A stretch of DNA of 64,000 bases from Armatimonadota bacterium. Lineage in GTDB: Bacteria > Armatimonadota > Fimbriimonadia > Fimbriimonadales > Fimbriimonadaceae. The stretch covers positions 62,001 to 126,000 of the forward strand of contig JAFDWX010000006.1 of the NCBI GenBank assembly GCA_018268255.1, given 5' to 3'. Positions 24,753-37,818 of this stretch are shown piece after piece. The translations under genes and the position numbers were made by a program. Within the stretch, counting starts at the first letter, position 1; every line of letters begins with the position of its first letter. Under the pieces are notes generated by a model, which saw nothing but the letters and a program-made list of their open reading frames with translations, did no database searches and had not been told where the DNA came from.

Positions 24753-26084
24753 CTAGCGCAAAGCGAGTTGATGCTCGACCGGCATGAGGTTCTTGGATTC
24801 TGCCGTCTGCACCATGGATTTGCCGTGCTCGATGTAGTACTCGAACTCCTCTGGAAAGACTCGCAAGGCAGCCGCAACCGGCCAGGCAGCAGCATCACCC
24901 AAACCACAGAATGATCGTCCGTCGAGCTGCTTGGTGATATCCAGCAAGAGGTCCATATCGCCCTTTTGCCCGTTGCCCTGAACGATGCGTTCCATGATCT
25001 GAAGCATCCACTTGGTCCCTTCGCGACAGGGAGTGCACTTTCCGCAGCTTTCCATGGCATAGAACATTGCCGTTCGCCAGATGAAAGAAACGATGCAGGT
25101 GTGTTCGTTGAGGAACATGCTCGCTCCTGAGCCCACCATCGACTTGACCTCCGCCATTTCCTCGTATCCGATGATGGCTTTGTCCACATCGGCCGCGGTG
25201 ATGATGGGAACCGATGATCCGCCGGGAACACAGGCCTTAAGTTTGCCGCCCTTGACGCCTCCCGCCATCTCCAGCAGGTCGCGCAACGGCGTCCCGAATT
25301 CAACTTCGAAGTTTCCGGGCTTGTTGACGTGCCCACTAACGCTAAAAATCTTTGTGCCTCGGGAGTTCTTGGTCGAAGCTCCGAGAGTCGCGTACCAGTT
25401 GCCACCCTTGTTGAGGATAAACGGTGCGCAGCAGTAGGTCTCAACGTTGTTGATGACCGTCGGAAAGTCGAAAAGACCTGCGATGGTAGGTAGTGGCGCA
25501 TGCGGAAACTTGAGTCGAGGCATCCCCCGCTCGCCCATGAGCGAACTCATCAAGGCGCTCTCTTCGCCGCACTCATACGACCCGGCACCGAGGTGAATAT
25601 GCAGGTCGAAATCAAAGCCTGATCCCAGAATATTCTTGCCGAGCAGCCCGGCGGCGTACGCCTCATCAATGGCGGAGCGGAGCGCTTTGGCTGCATCGAT
25701 GAATTCGCCACGGATGTACACGTAGCCGACATCTGCCTTGGTTGCGAACCCCGCTATGGTCATTCCCTCGATGAGCAGGAACGGTGTGGTCTCCAGAAGC
25801 TGCTTATCTTTAAAGGTCCCTGGCTCGCCCTCGTCTGCGTTGCAAAGAATATAGTGATGGGGGGCAGTTTTCTCTTTGGGGATACCGTTCCACTTGATCC
25901 AGGTAGGAAATCCTGCACCGCCTCGGCCTCGCAAACCGCTCGCTTTTATCTCGTCGATGATCGCCTGGCGCTCCATCCCCAACGCCTTTTTGAGAGCCTC
26001 GAATCCGCCCGTGCCTTGGTATCCGGCAAGGGTGCGAAAATTCGGATCGTGGGAGTGCTCGAAGAGAAGCTTGTATTCGGCCAT
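24753..26084 (-). CDS. nuoF: NADH-quinone oxidoreductase subunit F
   Basis: 443 residues. It is the NADH-oxidising subunit of complex I with FMN and the N3 4Fe-4S cluster. The FMN/NADH loops are SGLRGRGGAGFPTWIKW (residue ~50), CNADEGEPGTFKD (~80) and GSYECGEESALMSSLMGERG (~168). The SLBB domain is around NKPGNFEVEFGTPLRDLL. The cluster motif ESCGKCTPCREGTKW near 335 plus the downstream Cys in RSFCGLGDAA give four ligands. It is on the opposite strand from nuoD (30002) and nuoE (34083), so the usual nuo order is broken. Electrons should pass to NuoE and NuoG at the cytoplasmic arm. No nuoG is in the window. Confidence 0.95.
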   Translation of the reverse strand: MAEYKLLFEHSHDPNFRTLAGYQGTGGFEALKKALGMERQAIIDEIKASGLRGRGGAGFPTWIKWNGIPKEKTAPHHYILCNADEGEPGTFKDKQLLETTPFLLIEGMTIAGFATKADVGYVYIRGEFIDAAKALRSAIDEAYAAGLLGKNILGSGFDFDLHIHLGAGSYECGEESALMSSLMGERGMPRLKFPHAPLPTIAGLFDFPTVINNVETYCCAPFILNKGGNWYATLGASTKNSRGTKIFSVSGHVNKPGNFEVEFGTPLRDLLEMAGGVKGGKLKACVPGGSSVPIITAADVDKAIIGYEEMAEVKSMVGSGASMFLNEHTCIVSFIWRTAMFYAMESCGKCTPCREGTKWMLQIMERIVQGNGQKGDMDLLLDITKQLDGRSFCGLGDAAAWPVAAALRVFPEEFEYYIEHGKSMVQTAESKNLMPVEHQLALR

Positions 26085-26142
26085 ACGCTTGTCGTGATTC
26101 TACTGGATTCGCACTGCGACATTCACACTTGCGGAGAATAGT

Positions 26143-26220
26143 CGCCTGCGGCGGCCGGCCCGGGGCCACTCCCTCCCCGACTCGTACCTCGTCGGGTCTG
26201 CGCCCCGGCCGCCGCATGCG
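26143..26220 (+). repeat. GC-rich structured element, copy C
   Basis: Intergenic between divergent nuoF and a pilin-like gene. The outer arms 26143-26158 and 26205-26220 pair at 15 of 16 positions. The inner part carries CGGGGCCACTCCC (26161-26173) and a small stem CCGAC...GTCGG (26177-26195). It shares GGCCACTCCC with copy B and GCCAC with copies A and D, while its outer stem sequence is different. Confidence 0.65.
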
Positions 26221-26306
26221 AGGGCTTCGGTGCGGTGATTCCCTAATTCAGCGATGGGATGAGCTGCCGGCATAATTGCCTTGAGTAAGTTGCTATTTCG
26301 ATGTAC

Positions 26307-26312
26307 TATAAA
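26307..26312 (+). promoter_or_regulatory. -10 box in a 28-nt block duplicated at 27481
   Basis: TATAAA ends 9 nt before ATG 26322. The whole block from TGTACTATAAATG to the first codons is identical to that at 27482-27506. Confidence 0.55.
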
Positions 26313-26321
26313 TGTAGAACC

Positions 26322-27320
26322 ATGAAAAATACAGGAACTCCAACGATGGAGCGATTTTTGGCTCCGGCGATTATCGTGCTTCTTTCGGTGATCCTTTATC
26401 CCGTGCTGGATTCCCGAAAGACACATCCCACTCCCATGGCAGTCATGATCCGCAAGCAGTCCCAAGCGATGTTGTCCTATGTCCAGGACTACGATCAGCG
26501 TTTTCCAATCTGCCAGGTTGCGTATCCGGCGGGTGAACGCGACATTTTTTGGCACGACGTGGTTTATCCGTATCAGAGCTGGGACATTTACTATAATTCG
26601 TTTCGCGCGCTTCCCGGGGGAATATATGCGCACCATTATCTCTTCCAAACCCATCAGTATTATGCAATGCCTCCTGTGGCGGCAACAGTCAGTACCCTAG
26701 AGCGAACTCGTGGCTACTTCTCCTGGCAACAAACTCTATTGACAAGCGATTTGGCGCTTAAGTTTGAAGGTATCGCTGGCCACGTCAACTCAGGTGGAAC
26801 CGACTCGTATGGTGCGGGAAGGCACGACGCCCCATCCAGAACATTGTCCGAAATTTCGAATCCAGGCGAGATGATAGCGATAGCCGAAAGCTCGAACTGG
26901 GACTTTTGGTGGAGTTTTGGGAATGGTTCCAATTCGTACGCCATGAAATATTGCGTCCGATGGGCGCCTGAATATGCATGGTCAAGTTACGGAACGTGGT
27001 GGGGATATGCTGGTCCAACCGCGTCACAACATTTGGTAGAGGGCAGGAGCGGCGTCGGCCCAGTTTGCCAATACCCGAACGGAAAAACCATGGTTGCTAG
27101 CGCCGATGGCAGAGCACTGCTCCTTGATTTTCGAACCGAACTTATTTCGTATCGGCAATTGAGCGATGGCACCTACGCGATGAAGTGGTTCTGGCCCTAT
27201 GGGGACACCTCACCGTCGGTGGTTCAAAGCCCTAATTCGGGTAAGCCACTGCTGAGAAGTAATCTCAAGGCGCTAACTCCGAAGCTGGCTCTACGAGCGC
27301 AGTCCGCACGAACAGAATAG
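26322..27320 (+). CDS. Pilin-like paralog with decayed prepilin signal
   Basis: 332 residues from ATG 26322 (MKNTGTPTMERFLAPAIIV); the upstream ATG at 26301 overlaps the -10 box and is rejected. The body aligns along its whole length with the canonical prepilin protein at 36904-37818. Shared segments include [49 protein letters not shown] and GYAGPTASQHLVEGRSGVGP, then SADGRALLLDFR for the DG motif. The N-terminus keeps one hydrophobic helix but lacks the FTLIELL cleavage signal and Glu5. It is therefore unlikely to be processed or assembled as a pilin and is probably anchored by that helix. Function unknown. It is followed by a second paralog at 27500. Confidence 0.8.
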   Translation: MKNTGTPTMERFLAPAIIVLLSVILYPVLDSRKTHPTPMAVMIRKQSQAMLSYVQDYDQRFPICQVAYPAGERDIFWHDVVYPYQSWDIYYNSFRALPGGIYAHHYLFQTHQYYAMPPVAATVSTLERTRGYFSWQQTLLTSDLALKFEGIAGHVNSGGTDSYGAGRHDAPSRTLSEISNPGEMIAIAESSNWDFWWSFGNGSNSYAMKYCVRWAPEYAWSSYGTWWGYAGPTASQHLVEGRSGVGPVCQYPNGKTMVASADGRALLLDFRTELISYRQLSDGTYAMKWFWPYGDTSPSVVQSPNSGKPLLRSNLKALTPKLALRAQSARTE

Positions 27321-27484
27321 AGCATGTGATCTCCTCCAGTGTTGGGCTGGCCTGCACCACTTTGGCCGGACAACGGAGTGCTCAGGTTGCAGTAGCCAGC
27401 GAGGTGACGCTACTGGGCAAACGTCTGGTGTACTGCCCTCCACACAAGAGTATCCAATCTTGGAATTTGGAGTTTTTACTGTAC

Positions 27485-27490
27485 TATAAA
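27485..27490 (+). promoter_or_regulatory. -10 box identical in context to that at 26307
   Basis: TATAAA ends 9 nt before ATG 27500; there is no SD. Confidence 0.55.
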
Positions 27491-27499
27491 TGTAGAACC

Positions 27500-28495
27500 A
27501 TGAAAAAATACTATGCTTCATGGGCCGAAGCCGGATTGGCTATTGCAATCATACTTTTCTTATCGCTGATGCTCGTTCCCATCCACAAAGATGGCTTCCG
27601 GCACGAGCGTCCCAGCCAGTTATTTGTCCGAAAACAAGGACTTGCCTTGATGGCGTACCTTCAGGATAATGACCAGCGATTTCCGTTCTGCCAGATCACG
27701 GATCAAACGCAAGACATTGTGTGGTCCGAGGCGTTGGAGCCTTATATCAAGTCCTGGGATTCAGTCTTCTGGAATCCGTTCAGAGAATATCCATCGAGCG
27801 ATGCGGCCAACGCATGGTTTCAACGCCGGCAGTTCTTTGGCATGGCTCCTCGAGCTATCACGAATGGAGGGAGTTTCGACCAAGCCAATGGATTCTTCGG
27901 TTGGAGTCAGTCCACCCTAACTGGCGGTCACTTCGTAAAATTCGACGGACTTGCCGGTCATTCCAACGGTTATCTTGGAACTGACAACTATGGCAGTGGT
28001 CGTCACACTGCCGACTCGCTCTTCCTGCATGAAATTGCGGAACCCTCAAGAATGATCGCCATAGCAGAGTCCGCTAATTGGGACTTGTGGTGGTCTTTTG
28101 GGGACGGTTACTCTAGCTACGCGCTGAGATATTGCGTCCGATGGCACTACTCTGATTTGACGAATAGTTACGGCGATCAGTGGGGAATTGCCGGACCAAC
28201 GGCGTCGCAACGGACAGTCAAGGGCCGTTCTGGAATCGGAACCGATTGTCGTTACCCCCACGGTCTCACCATGGTTACCGGGGCAGACGGATCGGCAAAA
28301 CTCCTCGACTGGCGTCGCGAGCTTTTCAAGTACCAGCAACTGGAGGACGGCACGTTCGTGCATCCGTGGTTCTGGCCGCGCGGCGATGCGCCACCGCAGT
28401 CCCCCCATAGATCCGATCTAAGACAGGCGTTACCCAATAGGGGAAGGTGGAATAACCTAAGGTTGGTAAGGAGTTCCGAAGCTCCGCAGTTGTAG
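27500..28495 (+). CDS. Second pilin-like paralog with decayed prepilin signal
   Basis: 331 residues from ATG 27500 (MKKYYASWAEAGLAIAIILF). The reading frame is open 58 codons further back, but that stretch includes the promoter and has no similarity to the paralogs. It has one N-terminal hydrophobic helix without a prepilin peptidase site. The shared body runs from LFVRKQGLALMAYLQDNDQRFPFCQ to SANWDLWWSFGDGYSSYALRYCVRW, GIAGPTASQRTVKGRSGIGTDCRYP and TGADGSAKLLDWR. It clearly arose by tandem duplication with the gene at 26322, and both derive from the 36904 type. Function unknown. It ends in a basic tail. Confidence 0.8.
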   Translation: MKKYYASWAEAGLAIAIILFLSLMLVPIHKDGFRHERPSQLFVRKQGLALMAYLQDNDQRFPFCQITDQTQDIVWSEALEPYIKSWDSVFWNPFREYPSSDAANAWFQRRQFFGMAPRAITNGGSFDQANGFFGWSQSTLTGGHFVKFDGLAGHSNGYLGTDNYGSGRHTADSLFLHEIAEPSRMIAIAESANWDLWWSFGDGYSSYALRYCVRWHYSDLTNSYGDQWGIAGPTASQRTVKGRSGIGTDCRYPHGLTMVTGADGSAKLLDWRRELFKYQQLEDGTFVHPWFWPRGDAPPQSPHRSDLRQALPNRGRWNNLRLVRSSEAPQL

Positions 28496-28502
28496 AAGTG
28501 AG

Positions 28503-28573
28503 GATTCCGCCGGGGGGCAGGGCTGAGGCCCCTGGGCCGAAGCCAGGGATTGGCCTTGGGCCCCGGCGGAATC
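28503..28573 (-). repeat. GC-rich structured element, copy E
   Basis: A perfect 13-bp outer stem (28503-28515 with 28561-28573) closes the space between two convergent genes. Read on the minus strand, its inner part holds CCCAAGGCCAATCCCTGGC followed by TTCG and GGCCCAGGG. It matches the GGCCA-NCCC core of the other copies only partly, so it is the most divergent member. It could also act as a bidirectional transcript end. Confidence 0.5.
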
Positions 28574-28585
28574 GAAACTTGGAGA

Positions 28586-29785
28586 CTAGCTGGGCTCCCA
28601 ACCGGAAAGGTCGAAGTTGTTGCTCAAGATCAGGTAGTCGAAAATGGTGATGGTTCCATCGCCATCGAGGTCCGCTCGAGCGTCCCACCATGCATCCGCT
28701 GCGGTCGAATCGAAAGCATCGGACAATGCTAGGTAATCAAAGATCGTCACCGCGTTGTCGTCGTCCACATCTCCGTTGATCAATACAGGATTGATGAAAT
28801 CTTGTCCCACGGAGAGGTCCACGTTTTCCACCGCTAGCCGAAGGAATCGAGGGTTCTTAAAGGTAATGGTCTTGGTTCCGGTCACTGCGGTGTCGAACGC
28901 GTAATAGCCTTCGTAGCCCAAGGTGATGGTCTGCTCATCTTCGATGGTTCCATCTTGCGCCACCACCTGCACGGTAACCGGCTGACCCAGCGGATAGTAG
29001 TAGTCGCTCAGCGTCAGCTTGCCAGCCACAGTTCCAGGGTTAGCGGCGCAGTGGATCAATGCTCCGGTGTTTCTCTCATACACCTGGTCGCTTAATGCGC
29101 CCCCGAATCCTTGCTCGTTGAGCCTCTCCCACGATCGGTAGGCAACGTTGTAGGCGTAGGTGTGGCCACTGATAAGTTGAGCCCCTGGAATTGTCGTACC
29201 AGTGGACTCAGGCGTCTCTGCAGCTCCCCAAGCATAGACGGCCGCCGTGTAATCCACGATGTAGAAACCAGTCTCAGCGTCTGGCTCAAAACCGGGACGC
29301 GTAAACGGATTCCAAGTCACTTCTGCATCCAAGCCCGCGGGCAACATTTGCAGCGAGCTCAGGTTTGTGAGATAGGGAATCTCGTAGCTGAAATCTGCCG
29401 GATGGACTTCAATGGTGCCACTACCCGGAGCCGCACCACCCGTGAGAAGGTTAAAGGTGTAGGTTCCCGCCGGATGAGCAGCGGCAAAGTCGGCAGTCGA
29501 CGCGAATGGGCCGGAGTAGCAGACGAAATAGGTTCCCGCACCGTAAGACGCATCATAGAGGTCGAAGTCGCCTAGCGATGGAGTGGACAACGTTGCGCTC
29601 AGTAGATCGCCAGCCACCAGGGAACTGATCGATGCCGTTAGGTAACAAGTGGGATTGTCAGGCGGAGCAACATCACCGATCTGGTTGTACGACGCTGAAT
29701 AGGTGATGGCGTAACCATTCACATCTGCATGGGAAACGGCGGCAAGTGCCAACAAAGCGGTTATCGAGACAACGGATTTCATCAT
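28586..29785 (-). CDS. Secreted protein with C-terminal EF-hand (dockerin-like) module
   Basis: 399 residues from ATG 29785 (or 398 from 29782), placed by the SD GAGGA. A long upstream extension of the frame to 30280 antisense to nuoD is not real. Signal peptide MMKSVVSITALLALAAVSHA. The first ~230 residues are beta-rich and unrecognised (YAITYSASYNQIGDV, FVCYSGPFASTADFAAAHPAG). The C-terminal ~165 residues form the module found also at 1635 and 60965. It consists of a sandwich part starting GKLTLSDYYYPLGQPVTVQVV, then GDVDDDNAVTIFDYLALSDAF and ADLDGDGTITIFDYLILSNNF with calcium-loop Asp spacing. Likely cell-surface or extracellular; function unknown. Confidence 0.8.
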   Translation of the reverse strand: MMKSVVSITALLALAAVSHADVNGYAITYSASYNQIGDVAPPDNPTCYLTASISSLVAGDLLSATLSTPSLGDFDLYDASYGAGTYFVCYSGPFASTADFAAAHPAGTYTFNLLTGGAAPGSGTIEVHPADFSYEIPYLTNLSSLQMLPAGLDAEVTWNPFTRPGFEPDAETGFYIVDYTAAVYAWGAAETPESTGTTIPGAQLISGHTYAYNVAYRSWERLNEQGFGGALSDQVYERNTGALIHCAANPGTVAGKLTLSDYYYPLGQPVTVQVVAQDGTIEDEQTITLGYEGYYAFDTAVTGTKTITFKNPRFLRLAVENVDLSVGQDFINPVLINGDVDDDNAVTIFDYLALSDAFDSTAADAWWDARADLDGDGTITIFDYLILSNNFDLSGWEPS

Positions 29786-29987
29786 AGGTCCTCGCTGGTT
29801 AGGGTAGACAATTCGGATTTGAAAAAGTATGGCAATAAAACCTTCAAAGTTGCTCTTTTCCCTGTCAAATCTGAATCTTTTTGTGGTGGAAAGCGCAATA
29901 TCAGCTAGATCTAATCCGTTGGAAGTTGACAATGCTAAGAGTCGAAAATCGGAGGGCGACACCGAGATCGCTAGGCCCCAAACCCGG

Positions 29988-29993
29988 TAGTAT
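29988..29993 (+). promoter_or_regulatory. -10 box for nuoD
   Basis: TAGTAT, 8 nt before ATG 30002, no SD: predicted leaderless or near-leaderless. Confidence 0.45.
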
Positions 29994-30001
29994 TTGAAAC
30001 A

Positions 30002-31219
30002 ATGAGTCAGAACGCCTTCATGCCCACCACCGAGACCGTTTTTGAACGGACCGGTGAGAACACCATGATTGTGAACATGGGTCCGCAGCACCCTTCCACG
30101 CACGGAGTCCTGCGGGTCATTTGCGAACTTGAAGGCGAGACCATTGTCCAGTGCAAGTGCGTCATCGGATACCTGCACACGGGCATGGAAAAAGAGGCCG
30201 AGTACCAGCAATACCACAAATGCACGGTCATGACCGATCGCATGGATTACTTGAATGCGAACGGCAACAACTTGGCCCATGCCTTAGCGGTCGAAAAGCT
30301 GCTGGGTTGCGAGATCCCCAAACGGGCTCAGTATCTTCGGGTCATTCTGGCCGAGCTGAGCCGCATTGCCAGCCACTGTGTGTGGCTAGGAACTCACGGA
30401 TTGGACTTGGGAGCCATGACTCCCTACTTCTACATCATGCAGCAGCGCGAACTTATTCTCGACATGTTCGAGGTGTTCTCGGGTGTTCGCATGATGCCGA
30501 GTTGGATTGTGCCGGGCGGACTGAGAGGCGATATGCCCGACGGTTTCGAGGCCAAGCTCCGCAAATTCCTGAAGGGCTTTTTGGTAGAGCTCGATACGGT
30601 GGAGAGCTTGTTGGTCGAGAATCCGATCTGGATGGAGCGAACCCAGGGTGTCGGAATTCTTACCGGCAAGCAGACCATGGAACTGGGTTGTTCCGGTCCC
30701 ATTGCCCGAGCGAGCGGCGTTCACTGGGATCTTCGAAAAACCAATCCGTACTGCAGCTACGAAGACTTCGACTTCCGGGTGCCGCTTGGCAAATCAGGAG
30801 ATGTCTATGATCGTTTCCTGGTTCGATTGGCGGAAATGCGCGAAAGCTGCAAGATCATCGAGCAGGCGATCAATGGCTTGCCCGAAGGCGCGTGGCGAAC
30901 CTCGGATCGTAAAATCGTGCCGCCGCCTCGCCACGAACTCGATTCCTCAATGGAATCGTTGATCCACCACTTCAAGCTATATACGGAAGGTTTTCACCCT
31001 CCGGTGGGCGAAGCCTATGCCGGAATCGAGGGTAGCAAAGGCGAACTCGGATTTTATATCGTGAGCGATGGCACCAATCGTCCGTACCGATGGCACGAAC
31101 GTCCGTCGTCGTTCATGAATCTCAAATCGCTGGAAGTGATGGCTGTCGGCAGATTGCTGGCGGATGTCATTGCGATTATCGGCTCGATCGACATTGTTTT
31201 GGGTGAAATCGACCGGTAA
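30002..31219 (+). CDS. nuoD: NADH-quinone oxidoreductase subunit D
   Basis: 405 residues. The 49-kDa subunit lines the quinone pocket of complex I. Diagnostic stretches are NMGPQHPSTHGVLRVI (residue ~22; the quinone-binding His is in GPQHPSTHG), IGYLHTGMEKEAEY, TDRMDYLNANGNN, RVILAELSRIASHCVWLGTHGLD, and near the end PVGEAYAGIEGSKGELGFYIVSDG with IIGSIDIVLGEIDR at the C-terminus. It is the normal length, with no fusion to NuoC. It lies alone on the plus strand, separated from nuoE by a pullulanase gene and from nuoF by three unrelated genes. Confidence 0.96.
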   Translation: MSQNAFMPTTETVFERTGENTMIVNMGPQHPSTHGVLRVICELEGETIVQCKCVIGYLHTGMEKEAEYQQYHKCTVMTDRMDYLNANGNNLAHALAVEKLLGCEIPKRAQYLRVILAELSRIASHCVWLGTHGLDLGAMTPYFYIMQQRELILDMFEVFSGVRMMPSWIVPGGLRGDMPDGFEAKLRKFLKGFLVELDTVESLLVENPIWMERTQGVGILTGKQTMELGCSGPIARASGVHWDLRKTNPYCSYEDFDFRVPLGKSGDVYDRFLVRLAEMRESCKIIEQAINGLPEGAWRTSDRKIVPPPRHELDSSMESLIHHFKLYTEGFHPPVGEAYAGIEGSKGELGFYIVSDGTNRPYRWHERPSSFMNLKSLEVMAVGRLLADVIAIIGSIDIVLGEIDR

Positions 31220-33965: not shown

Positions 33966-34082
33966 ACTTTGGCCATTGGTCAACCTGGGGGGCCAGGAAT
34001 CCGCAATCCTCGATTGCCCCCTGCGCACGAACGTAAGACCGCACGCTCCAACTAGCCAGTGCGGTATCTTACATCAAAGATC

Positions 34083-34700
34083 ATGTCCGACCTGATCCAA
34101 CTTGGCAGCATCAACGAGCGACCGAAGGCGCCGCGTCCCGAAGACCTGGATTTGAGGTTTAGCGAGGAGGCGGTCAAGGAACTCGACGCGCTGAAATCGC
34201 ACTACCCGACCCAAAAGGCATGCATTTTGCCGGGGTTGTGGATCGCCCAGCGCGAATATGGGGGATACCTCAGCGGTCCAGCCATCGCCGAAGTTGCCTT
34301 TAGGCTTCAACGAAGTTACGCCGAAGTGGAGGGCGTTGCCACGTTCTACAGCATGTACAACACGGCGCACCCGGTCGGCAAGCATATGATCGAGGTGTGC
34401 ACATGCCTGACCTGCCACGTGTGCGGCGCCTATCGAATTGCGGATTATCTCAAGGAGAAGCTTGGAATCGGTTTCGGTGAAACAACCGCAGATGGGATGT
34501 TCACCCTTCACGAAGTCGAGTGTCTCAACGCGTGCGACCGCGCACCGCTCCTCCAAGTCGGCAGCGATTACCATGGTCCGGTTGACCACGCCTACATCGA
34601 TCGATTGCTGGATGACTTGAGGTCGAAACCCAGCACGGTTATCCAGATGGCCGACGATATCGTCAAGGTTCACCTGCAAAAATCAGAACGACCGCAGTAG
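34083..34700 (+). CDS. nuoE: NADH-quinone oxidoreductase subunit E
   Basis: 205 residues from ATG 34083 (MSDLIQLGSINERPKAPRPE). The thioredoxin-like N1a [2Fe-2S] subunit that pairs with NuoF. Features are LPGLWIAQREYGGYLSGPAIAEVA, VEGVATFYSMYNTAHPVGKHMIEVCT and the cluster ligands Cys-x4-Cys in CTCLTCHVCGAY and Cys-x3-Cys in VECLNACDRAP. The extra cysteines in CTCLTCHVC make the ligand choice slightly ambiguous. -10-like boxes TATCTT (34065-34070) and TTACAT (34069-34074) stand just before the start without an SD. It is probably followed by the hemolysin III gene 20 bp downstream, which has its own -10. Confidence 0.94.
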   Translation: MSDLIQLGSINERPKAPRPEDLDLRFSEEAVKELDALKSHYPTQKACILPGLWIAQREYGGYLSGPAIAEVAFRLQRSYAEVEGVATFYSMYNTAHPVGKHMIEVCTCLTCHVCGAYRIADYLKEKLGIGFGETTADGMFTLHEVECLNACDRAPLLQVGSDYHGPVDHAYIDRLLDDLRSKPSTVIQMADDIVKVHLQKSERPQ

Positions 34701-36903: not shown

Positions 36904-37818
36904 TTAGTTGACTCCTGCCGGCCAGAATGCTGGGTGCACCCAAATGTTATTGGTTGCATCGATCTGTACCCGCCGGAACAGCTTACCTCGGAAGTCCATG
37001 CTCTTAGCAGAACCGTCGGTCGCTGCAAATGTCGTGTAGCCATTGGGGAAGAAGCAGGAAGCATTGACGCCCGATCGGCCGCTGACTGGTCGCTTGTAAG
37101 CACCAGGACCAGCAAAACCCCATTGGGTGCCGTAGCTGCTGTAGTTAGCTTCCGGAGTCCATCGTACGCAGTACTTCATTGCGTAGCTGGTGCTGCCGTC
37201 TCCGAAGGACCACCACATATCCCAGTTCTGCGATTCAGCAACCATCACCATGTCTGACGGGCTGCCAATCGAGCTCAGCGATGTGGACGGGAAGTTGCGT
37301 CGGCCAGCACCATAGGTGTCGTTGCCGTAGCCATCTGCCGTTGGGACCTGGTTTGCGTGACCAGCAATACCGTTGAAGCGGACCAGAACGCCACCGGTCA
37401 AGGTTGCGTTGTTCCAAGCCATAAAGCCGTACTGCTTCTCATAAGGTGCGCCAACGCCGCCAGCTGCGGGTGCCATACCCATGTACTGGGTTCGCTTGAA
37501 CTGGATGTCAGCAACAGCGCCCGTGGGCTTGTCTCGCTTCGGGTGGATCAAAAGGTCCCAGTTCTTAACGTAGGGCTGAACTGCATCCTGCCACATGATG
37601 TCGACACCGGTGGTGGCGATCTGTGCGTGCGGAGGAAGATCATCGTTGTCGCCTGCATACATCAGGACAGCGAGACCATTTTGCTTAAGGTTGCTGAGAA
37701 CTGCAGTGTCCTTTGCCGATTCCTTTGCCTGAGCAAAAACCGGGAACAGGATCGCAGCAAGAATTGCGATGATCGCGATAACGACCAAAAGTTCGATGAG
37801 TGTAAACGCTTTTCGCAT
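36904..37818 (-). CDS. Prepilin-type protein, canonical parent type of the 26322/27500 paralogs
   Basis: 304 residues starting [19 protein letters not shown], with the conserved class III signal, Glu5 and helix. The body is the same as in the two degenerate paralogs: [66 protein letters not shown] and [15 protein letters not shown] with the C-terminal DG motif. The SD GGAGG lies 12-16 nt before the start. Upstream is an unusually long non-coding region of ~500 bp. It forms a two-gene operon with the small lipoprotein. Confidence 0.9.

Follow-up and report, generated by a model that had tools for sequence, protein, structure and literature searches.

The questions raised by this locus are whether two tandem genes that derive from a pilin gene, and that lack the FTLIE motif of prepilins, still encode parts of a filament, and why their start regions are identical at so great a divergence of the genes. 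The window, meaning the whole stretch of DNA analysed, comprises 64,000 nucleotides (C6:62001-126000) of a 3.19 Mb genome. The genes, g1 (26322-27320, plus strand, stop codon included) and g2 (27500-28495, plus strand, stop codon included), encode pilin-derived proteins of 332 and 331 amino acids with an eroded stalk, and their nearest relative is p3 (36904-37818, minus strand), a canonical prepilin gene. End-to-end alignment gave identities of 49-50 % between g1 and g2, 43-44 % between g1 and p3 and 44 % between g2 and p3, which bears out the claim of the preliminary description that both paralogues align with the prepilin at 36904 over the whole body. In a tree built from the heads only, g1 and g2 formed a clade with support of 100/100 and p3 was its sister at 98/92, so a single loss predating the duplication is the simplest history; the branch of g1 and g2 is longer than that of p3. 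Head homology, tree position and best matches inside the family place both genes in the p3-type Armatimonadota pilin subfamily.

Relatives were sought in 61 genomes with g1 and in 85 genomes of the family with a head-only profile, and the N-termini of the fetched matches were read; two scans of the genome_contigs collection, with g1 and with a body alignment, returned no relatives. Among the genomes searched, the pair is present solely in this one. The two genes belong to a known protein family, of which they form a variant confined to one lineage, and the start block that they share is the one real oddity. Taken as a whole, the best explanation, in which a canonical p3-type prepilin gene of a Fimbriimonadaceae-like armatimonad gave rise by duplication to a tandem pair limited to one lineage, has about an even chance of being correct.

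The preliminary description held that the N-terminal helices of both proteins lack FTLIE and the glutamate at position 5, and that the prepilin signal had been lost. The motif is indeed absent from both, and neither protein matches any Pfam or NCBIfam family up to an E-value of 1, whereas p3 matches the Pfam N_methyl family (PF07963) and the NCBIfam prepilin model (TIGR02532). The glutamate, however, is still there: residue 10 of g1 (codon 26349-26351) and residue 10 of g2 (codon 27527-27529) lie in the exact register of Glu5, and Ala11-Ile12-Ile13, Leu16, Leu20 and Pro22 are also kept in register by both, the Ala-Ile-Ile triplet and Pro22 being identical across g1, g2 and p3 and fixing the helix register. 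The equivalent of the pilin alpha1N helix is encoded at 26337-26408 of the plus strand in g1 (TPTMERFLAPAIIVLLSVILYPVL, Pro22 codon 26400-26402) and at 27515-27586 of the plus strand in g2 (ASWAEAGLAIAIILFLSLMLVPIH, Pro22 codon 27578-27580). The N-terminus of g1 reads MKNTG followed by TPTMERFLAPAIIVLLSVILYPVL, with Gly at -1 (MKNTG/TPTME), and that of g2 reads MKKYY followed by ASWAEAGLAIAIILFLSLMLVPI, with Tyr at -1, in a family in which this residue is Ala in 82 % and Gly in 18 % of members. Loss of the prepilin signal is clear for g2, with its Tyr at -1, and only partial for g1, which has Gly at -1 and Glu at +5. Both genes have Glu at +5 and a hydrophobic helix of about 21 residues, the 19-residue hydropathy peaks being 2.2 and 2.4 for g1 and g2 against 3.2 for p3.

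Positions 1 to 4, which vary little or not at all in the family, are altered in both proteins; F1, T2, L3 and E5 were each found at 100 % in 76 distinct complete N-termini of the family. This set was gathered by motif match; in a motif-free reading of the matches, the handful without the motif were cut at contig ends, masked or fragments, so that g1 and g2 alone show this loss among the genomes examined. As a separate observation, the 24-residue alpha1N sequence is nearly invariant over 40 genomes, in contrast to the heads, whose identity drops to about 30 %. The possibility that a start farther upstream would restore a prepilin leader was rejected: the frame of g1 extends upstream to a methionine at 26301 (MYYKCRT) and that of g2 reaches a TTG at 27467 and, beyond it, a GTG at 27326, and no FTLIE is carried by these extensions.

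The changes are distributed unevenly along the proteins. Of 42 family-conserved columns in the stalk (positions 1-60), all are kept by p3, 13 by g1 and 12 by g2, whereas in the head 32, 22 and 26 of 33 are kept by p3, g1 and g2, respectively (stalk versus head, Fisher test, 0.003 for g1 and 2e-5 for g2). As judged from these columns, the constraint that was released appears to be mainly that of the filament-packing stalk, with the head retained. Common to the pair are a two-residue deletion in alpha1C and a new Cys64, and each protein extends beyond the FWPxG end of its relatives in a C-terminal tail, of 38 amino acids in g1 (27204-27317, plus strand) and of 36, partly similar to those of g1, in g2 (28385-28492, plus strand). 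An AlphaFold model built from three window sequences was uninformative for the head fold (pLDDT 32, pTM 0.19), and a search against solved structures returned only chance-like matches of a short stretch to WD40 (G-beta) chains.

The surroundings of the genes resemble those of pilin genes in relatives. The p3 gene lies beside genes for ManC and GlnE, as a canonical pilin gene does in a congener (G002), and the next closest homologue, from genome G069, is 50 % identical to p3, has a canonical leader and adjoins nuoD, which is the neighbourhood of g1 and g2. The complex I genes nuoF, nuoD and nuoE are separated by unrelated genes (window positions 24753-26084, 30002-31219 and 34059-34700), and pilin genes stand beside nuoF and/or nuoD in G002 and G069, so that pilin genes seem to recur in this setting. 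In some relatives, five to six such pilin genes stand in tandem (arrays L071 in G019 and L073 in G005). A long GC-rich palindrome (28496-28580), probably a terminator or REP-like element, lies between g2 and a converging gene (28586-30280) whose product has two calcium-loop-like repeats near its C-terminus and is dockerin-like by eye; imperfect copies of this palindrome (77-86 %) are dispersed at C3:305053, C4:345911, C5:418794, C5:429401, C6:149442, C7:181481 and C8:60348. A second long palindrome (26142-26221, 17-nt arms, 94 %), located between the divergent nuoF and g1, gave a single match in the rest of the genome, both weak and partial.

The preliminary description had also reported 28 identical bases spanning a -10 box and the first codons of both genes, and the match is exact: positions 26302-26329 (TGTACTATAAATGTAGAACC joined to ATGAAAAA) equal positions 27480-27507 at 28 of 28 nucleotides, both on the plus strand, where shuffles of the window lead to an expectation of 0.00. 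The block contains a -10-like TACTAT/TATAAA, an ATG-TAG start-stop and the start codon of the gene; TACTAT ends 12 nt and TATAAA 9 nt before the ATG, and neither gene has a Shine-Dalgarno sequence. By eye, a -35-like TTGAGT (26281-26286, plus strand) stands 17 nt before the TACTAT of g1 (26304-26309) and a TTGGAA (27460-27465, plus strand) 16 nt before that of g2 (27482-27487); both are weak and below the cut-off of the standard promoter scan, which calls a promoter for neither gene. Among the 31 pilin-type starts of the genome, 17 have a Shine-Dalgarno-like sequence and 2 have TANNNT near the start, so that the starts of g1 and g2 are unlike those of most of their relatives. When the genome was searched for the block, as had been proposed, no third copy was found in the 3.19 Mb with up to 3 mismatches allowed, which rules it out as a regulon site, and the block was absent from the 84 other family genomes and the 112 genomes of the order that were searched. 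An Rfam search of 26000-28700 returned no family.

Such identity is abnormal for paralogues so diverged. The 20 nucleotides upstream of g1 and g2 agree at 20 of 20 positions, against 56 % for the bodies and 32 % at fourfold-degenerate sites, and 435 control pairs drawn from the remaining pilin starts of this genome agree at a mean of 5.1 and a maximum of 13 of 20. Tandem-array paralogues of relatives, with bodies about 70-94 % identical, commonly share only 2-11 of 20, and 17-20 of 20 were found in only three relative pairs, whose bodies have 88-91 % nucleotide identity. These values uphold the suggestion that the start region is under constraint or was recently converted. Two origins come into question, a function of the block that tolerates no change and its recent copying as a short tract, and the sharp edges together with the missing flanking homology fit neither perfectly. 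That the identity stems from recent short-tract gene conversion or copying and not from constraint is given slightly less than an even chance. The edges of the tract suit such a copy, since upstream similarity is limited to a TTG and divergence is at background directly after the block, and so does the faster divergence of upstream regions than of bodies in sister paralogues, which implies that such regions are not kept by ordinary promoter constraint; yet conversion normally needs flanking homology, of which there is none here, and the tract coincides exactly with the functional part, the -10-like box and the start codon. Constraint and conversion are inseparable because the pair occurs in one genome only among those searched, and the choice concerns the block and leaves the account of the proteins unaffected.

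For the proteins, the preferred account is that after the split from p3 the ancestor of the pair was freed from the constraint of the filament stalk and lost FTLIE and most alpha1 positions, that two alpha1C residues went and a cysteine and a C-terminal tail were gained, while purifying selection continued to act on the globular head. The hydrophobic helix, which was retained, would most likely take the products into the membrane by the Sec route and anchor them there, with the head exposed on the outer side of the cytoplasmic membrane. The genome has a single prepilin peptidase (Peptidase_A24) gene, whose product might still trim g1 after Gly(-1) and probably would not trim g2. The two genes probably share a parallel mode of expression, each from its copy of a common near-leaderless promoter/start module, which may be held identical by functional constraint or may have been copied recently between them. 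On this sequence reading, membrane-anchored, pilin-derived head proteins, with g1 perhaps still processed, are put at an evenly balanced probability. The new non-pilus job that had been proposed for the globular domain is plausible insofar as the head is kept under purifying selection while the stalk has eroded, and the role itself remains at the level of inference. A more specific version, in which the pair left the filament with its heads anchored outside the cytoplasm and the block serves as a shared cis-element, in which a near-leaderless start carrying the AUG-UAG start-stop is combined with an imperfect dyad (GTACTA-N6-TAGAAC), or provides a direct repeat whose recombination removes g1 and puts g2 under the g1 promoter, is considered unlikely.

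Two other readings of the proteins were weighed. That they still function in a type IV filament, or at its tip, as minor pilins or pseudopilins whose class III leaders are non-canonical, is a lesser but real possibility: Glu5, A11-I12-I13 and Pro22 are in register behind a short basic leader in both, g1 has Gly at -1, prepilin peptidases accept some non-canonical leaders according to a review (PMC4471445), and the genome holds 46 N_methyl (prepilin-type) matches besides its peptidase. Retention of Glu5 and Pro22 argues against loss of the filament, but with 7 of 24 helix positions shared, chance or ancestry may explain it, and the surface on which filaments pack is the most eroded part of the proteins and has lost two residues in alpha1C, while positions 1-4 are changed in both and g2 has Tyr at -1. 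That the genes are copies decaying towards pseudogenes is very improbable. The eroded helix, changes at about half of the positions outside alpha1N that the family conserves and a branch longer than that of p3 would suit decay, but the pair has novel features in common (Cys64 and the tail), and between g1 and g2 pS is 0.73 and pN 0.37, giving a dN/dS of about 0.2 that is approximate since silent sites are saturated. In a neutral simulation with 0.35 substitutions per site per lineage, about 10 stops were expected per gene; no stop or frameshift was observed. Decay was rejected on the dN/dS and the missing stops: the ratio for the body is not near 1, the head is under purifying selection, and the genes are not decaying.

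Should the preferred account be true, the pair would be a clean case of a pilin escaping the filament, in which the near-invariant stalk of a family was dismantled in one lineage, sparing few residues (Glu5 and Pro22 included), while the head persisted. It would then make it possible to test, on natural variants, which N-terminal residues are needed for processing and which, separately, for assembly, and the block would be a rare start region that has outlived a saturated coding region.

Among known systems, the pair is closest to the PulG-like prepilins of Armatimonadota (COG2165 type, PF07963/TIGR02532), represented by p3, with which it shares full-length homology, the Glu5/Pro22 register, two head cysteines (C217 and C255 of p3) and the neighbourhood, and from which it differs in having no FTLIE, little of the stalk consensus, the shortened alpha1C, the extra Cys64, the tail of 36-38 amino acids and a start without a Shine-Dalgarno sequence. 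Minor pilins and pseudopilins of the GspK type have lost Glu5 and kept the cleavage site. Like the pair, they are related to pilins and deviate from the canonical motif at the N-terminus, but g1 and g2 have kept Glu5 and lost the F-T-L-I core, and g2 is also without the cleavage residue. No relative with an eroded motif of the g1/g2 type was found in any genome searched. In Fimbriimonas ginsengisoli, PF07963 was found on 65 of 79 PulG genes (PMC4072686). Motif-less PulG-type annotations thus occur in the same phylum, although the 14 such genes of that organism may be either eroded or just below a score cut-off.
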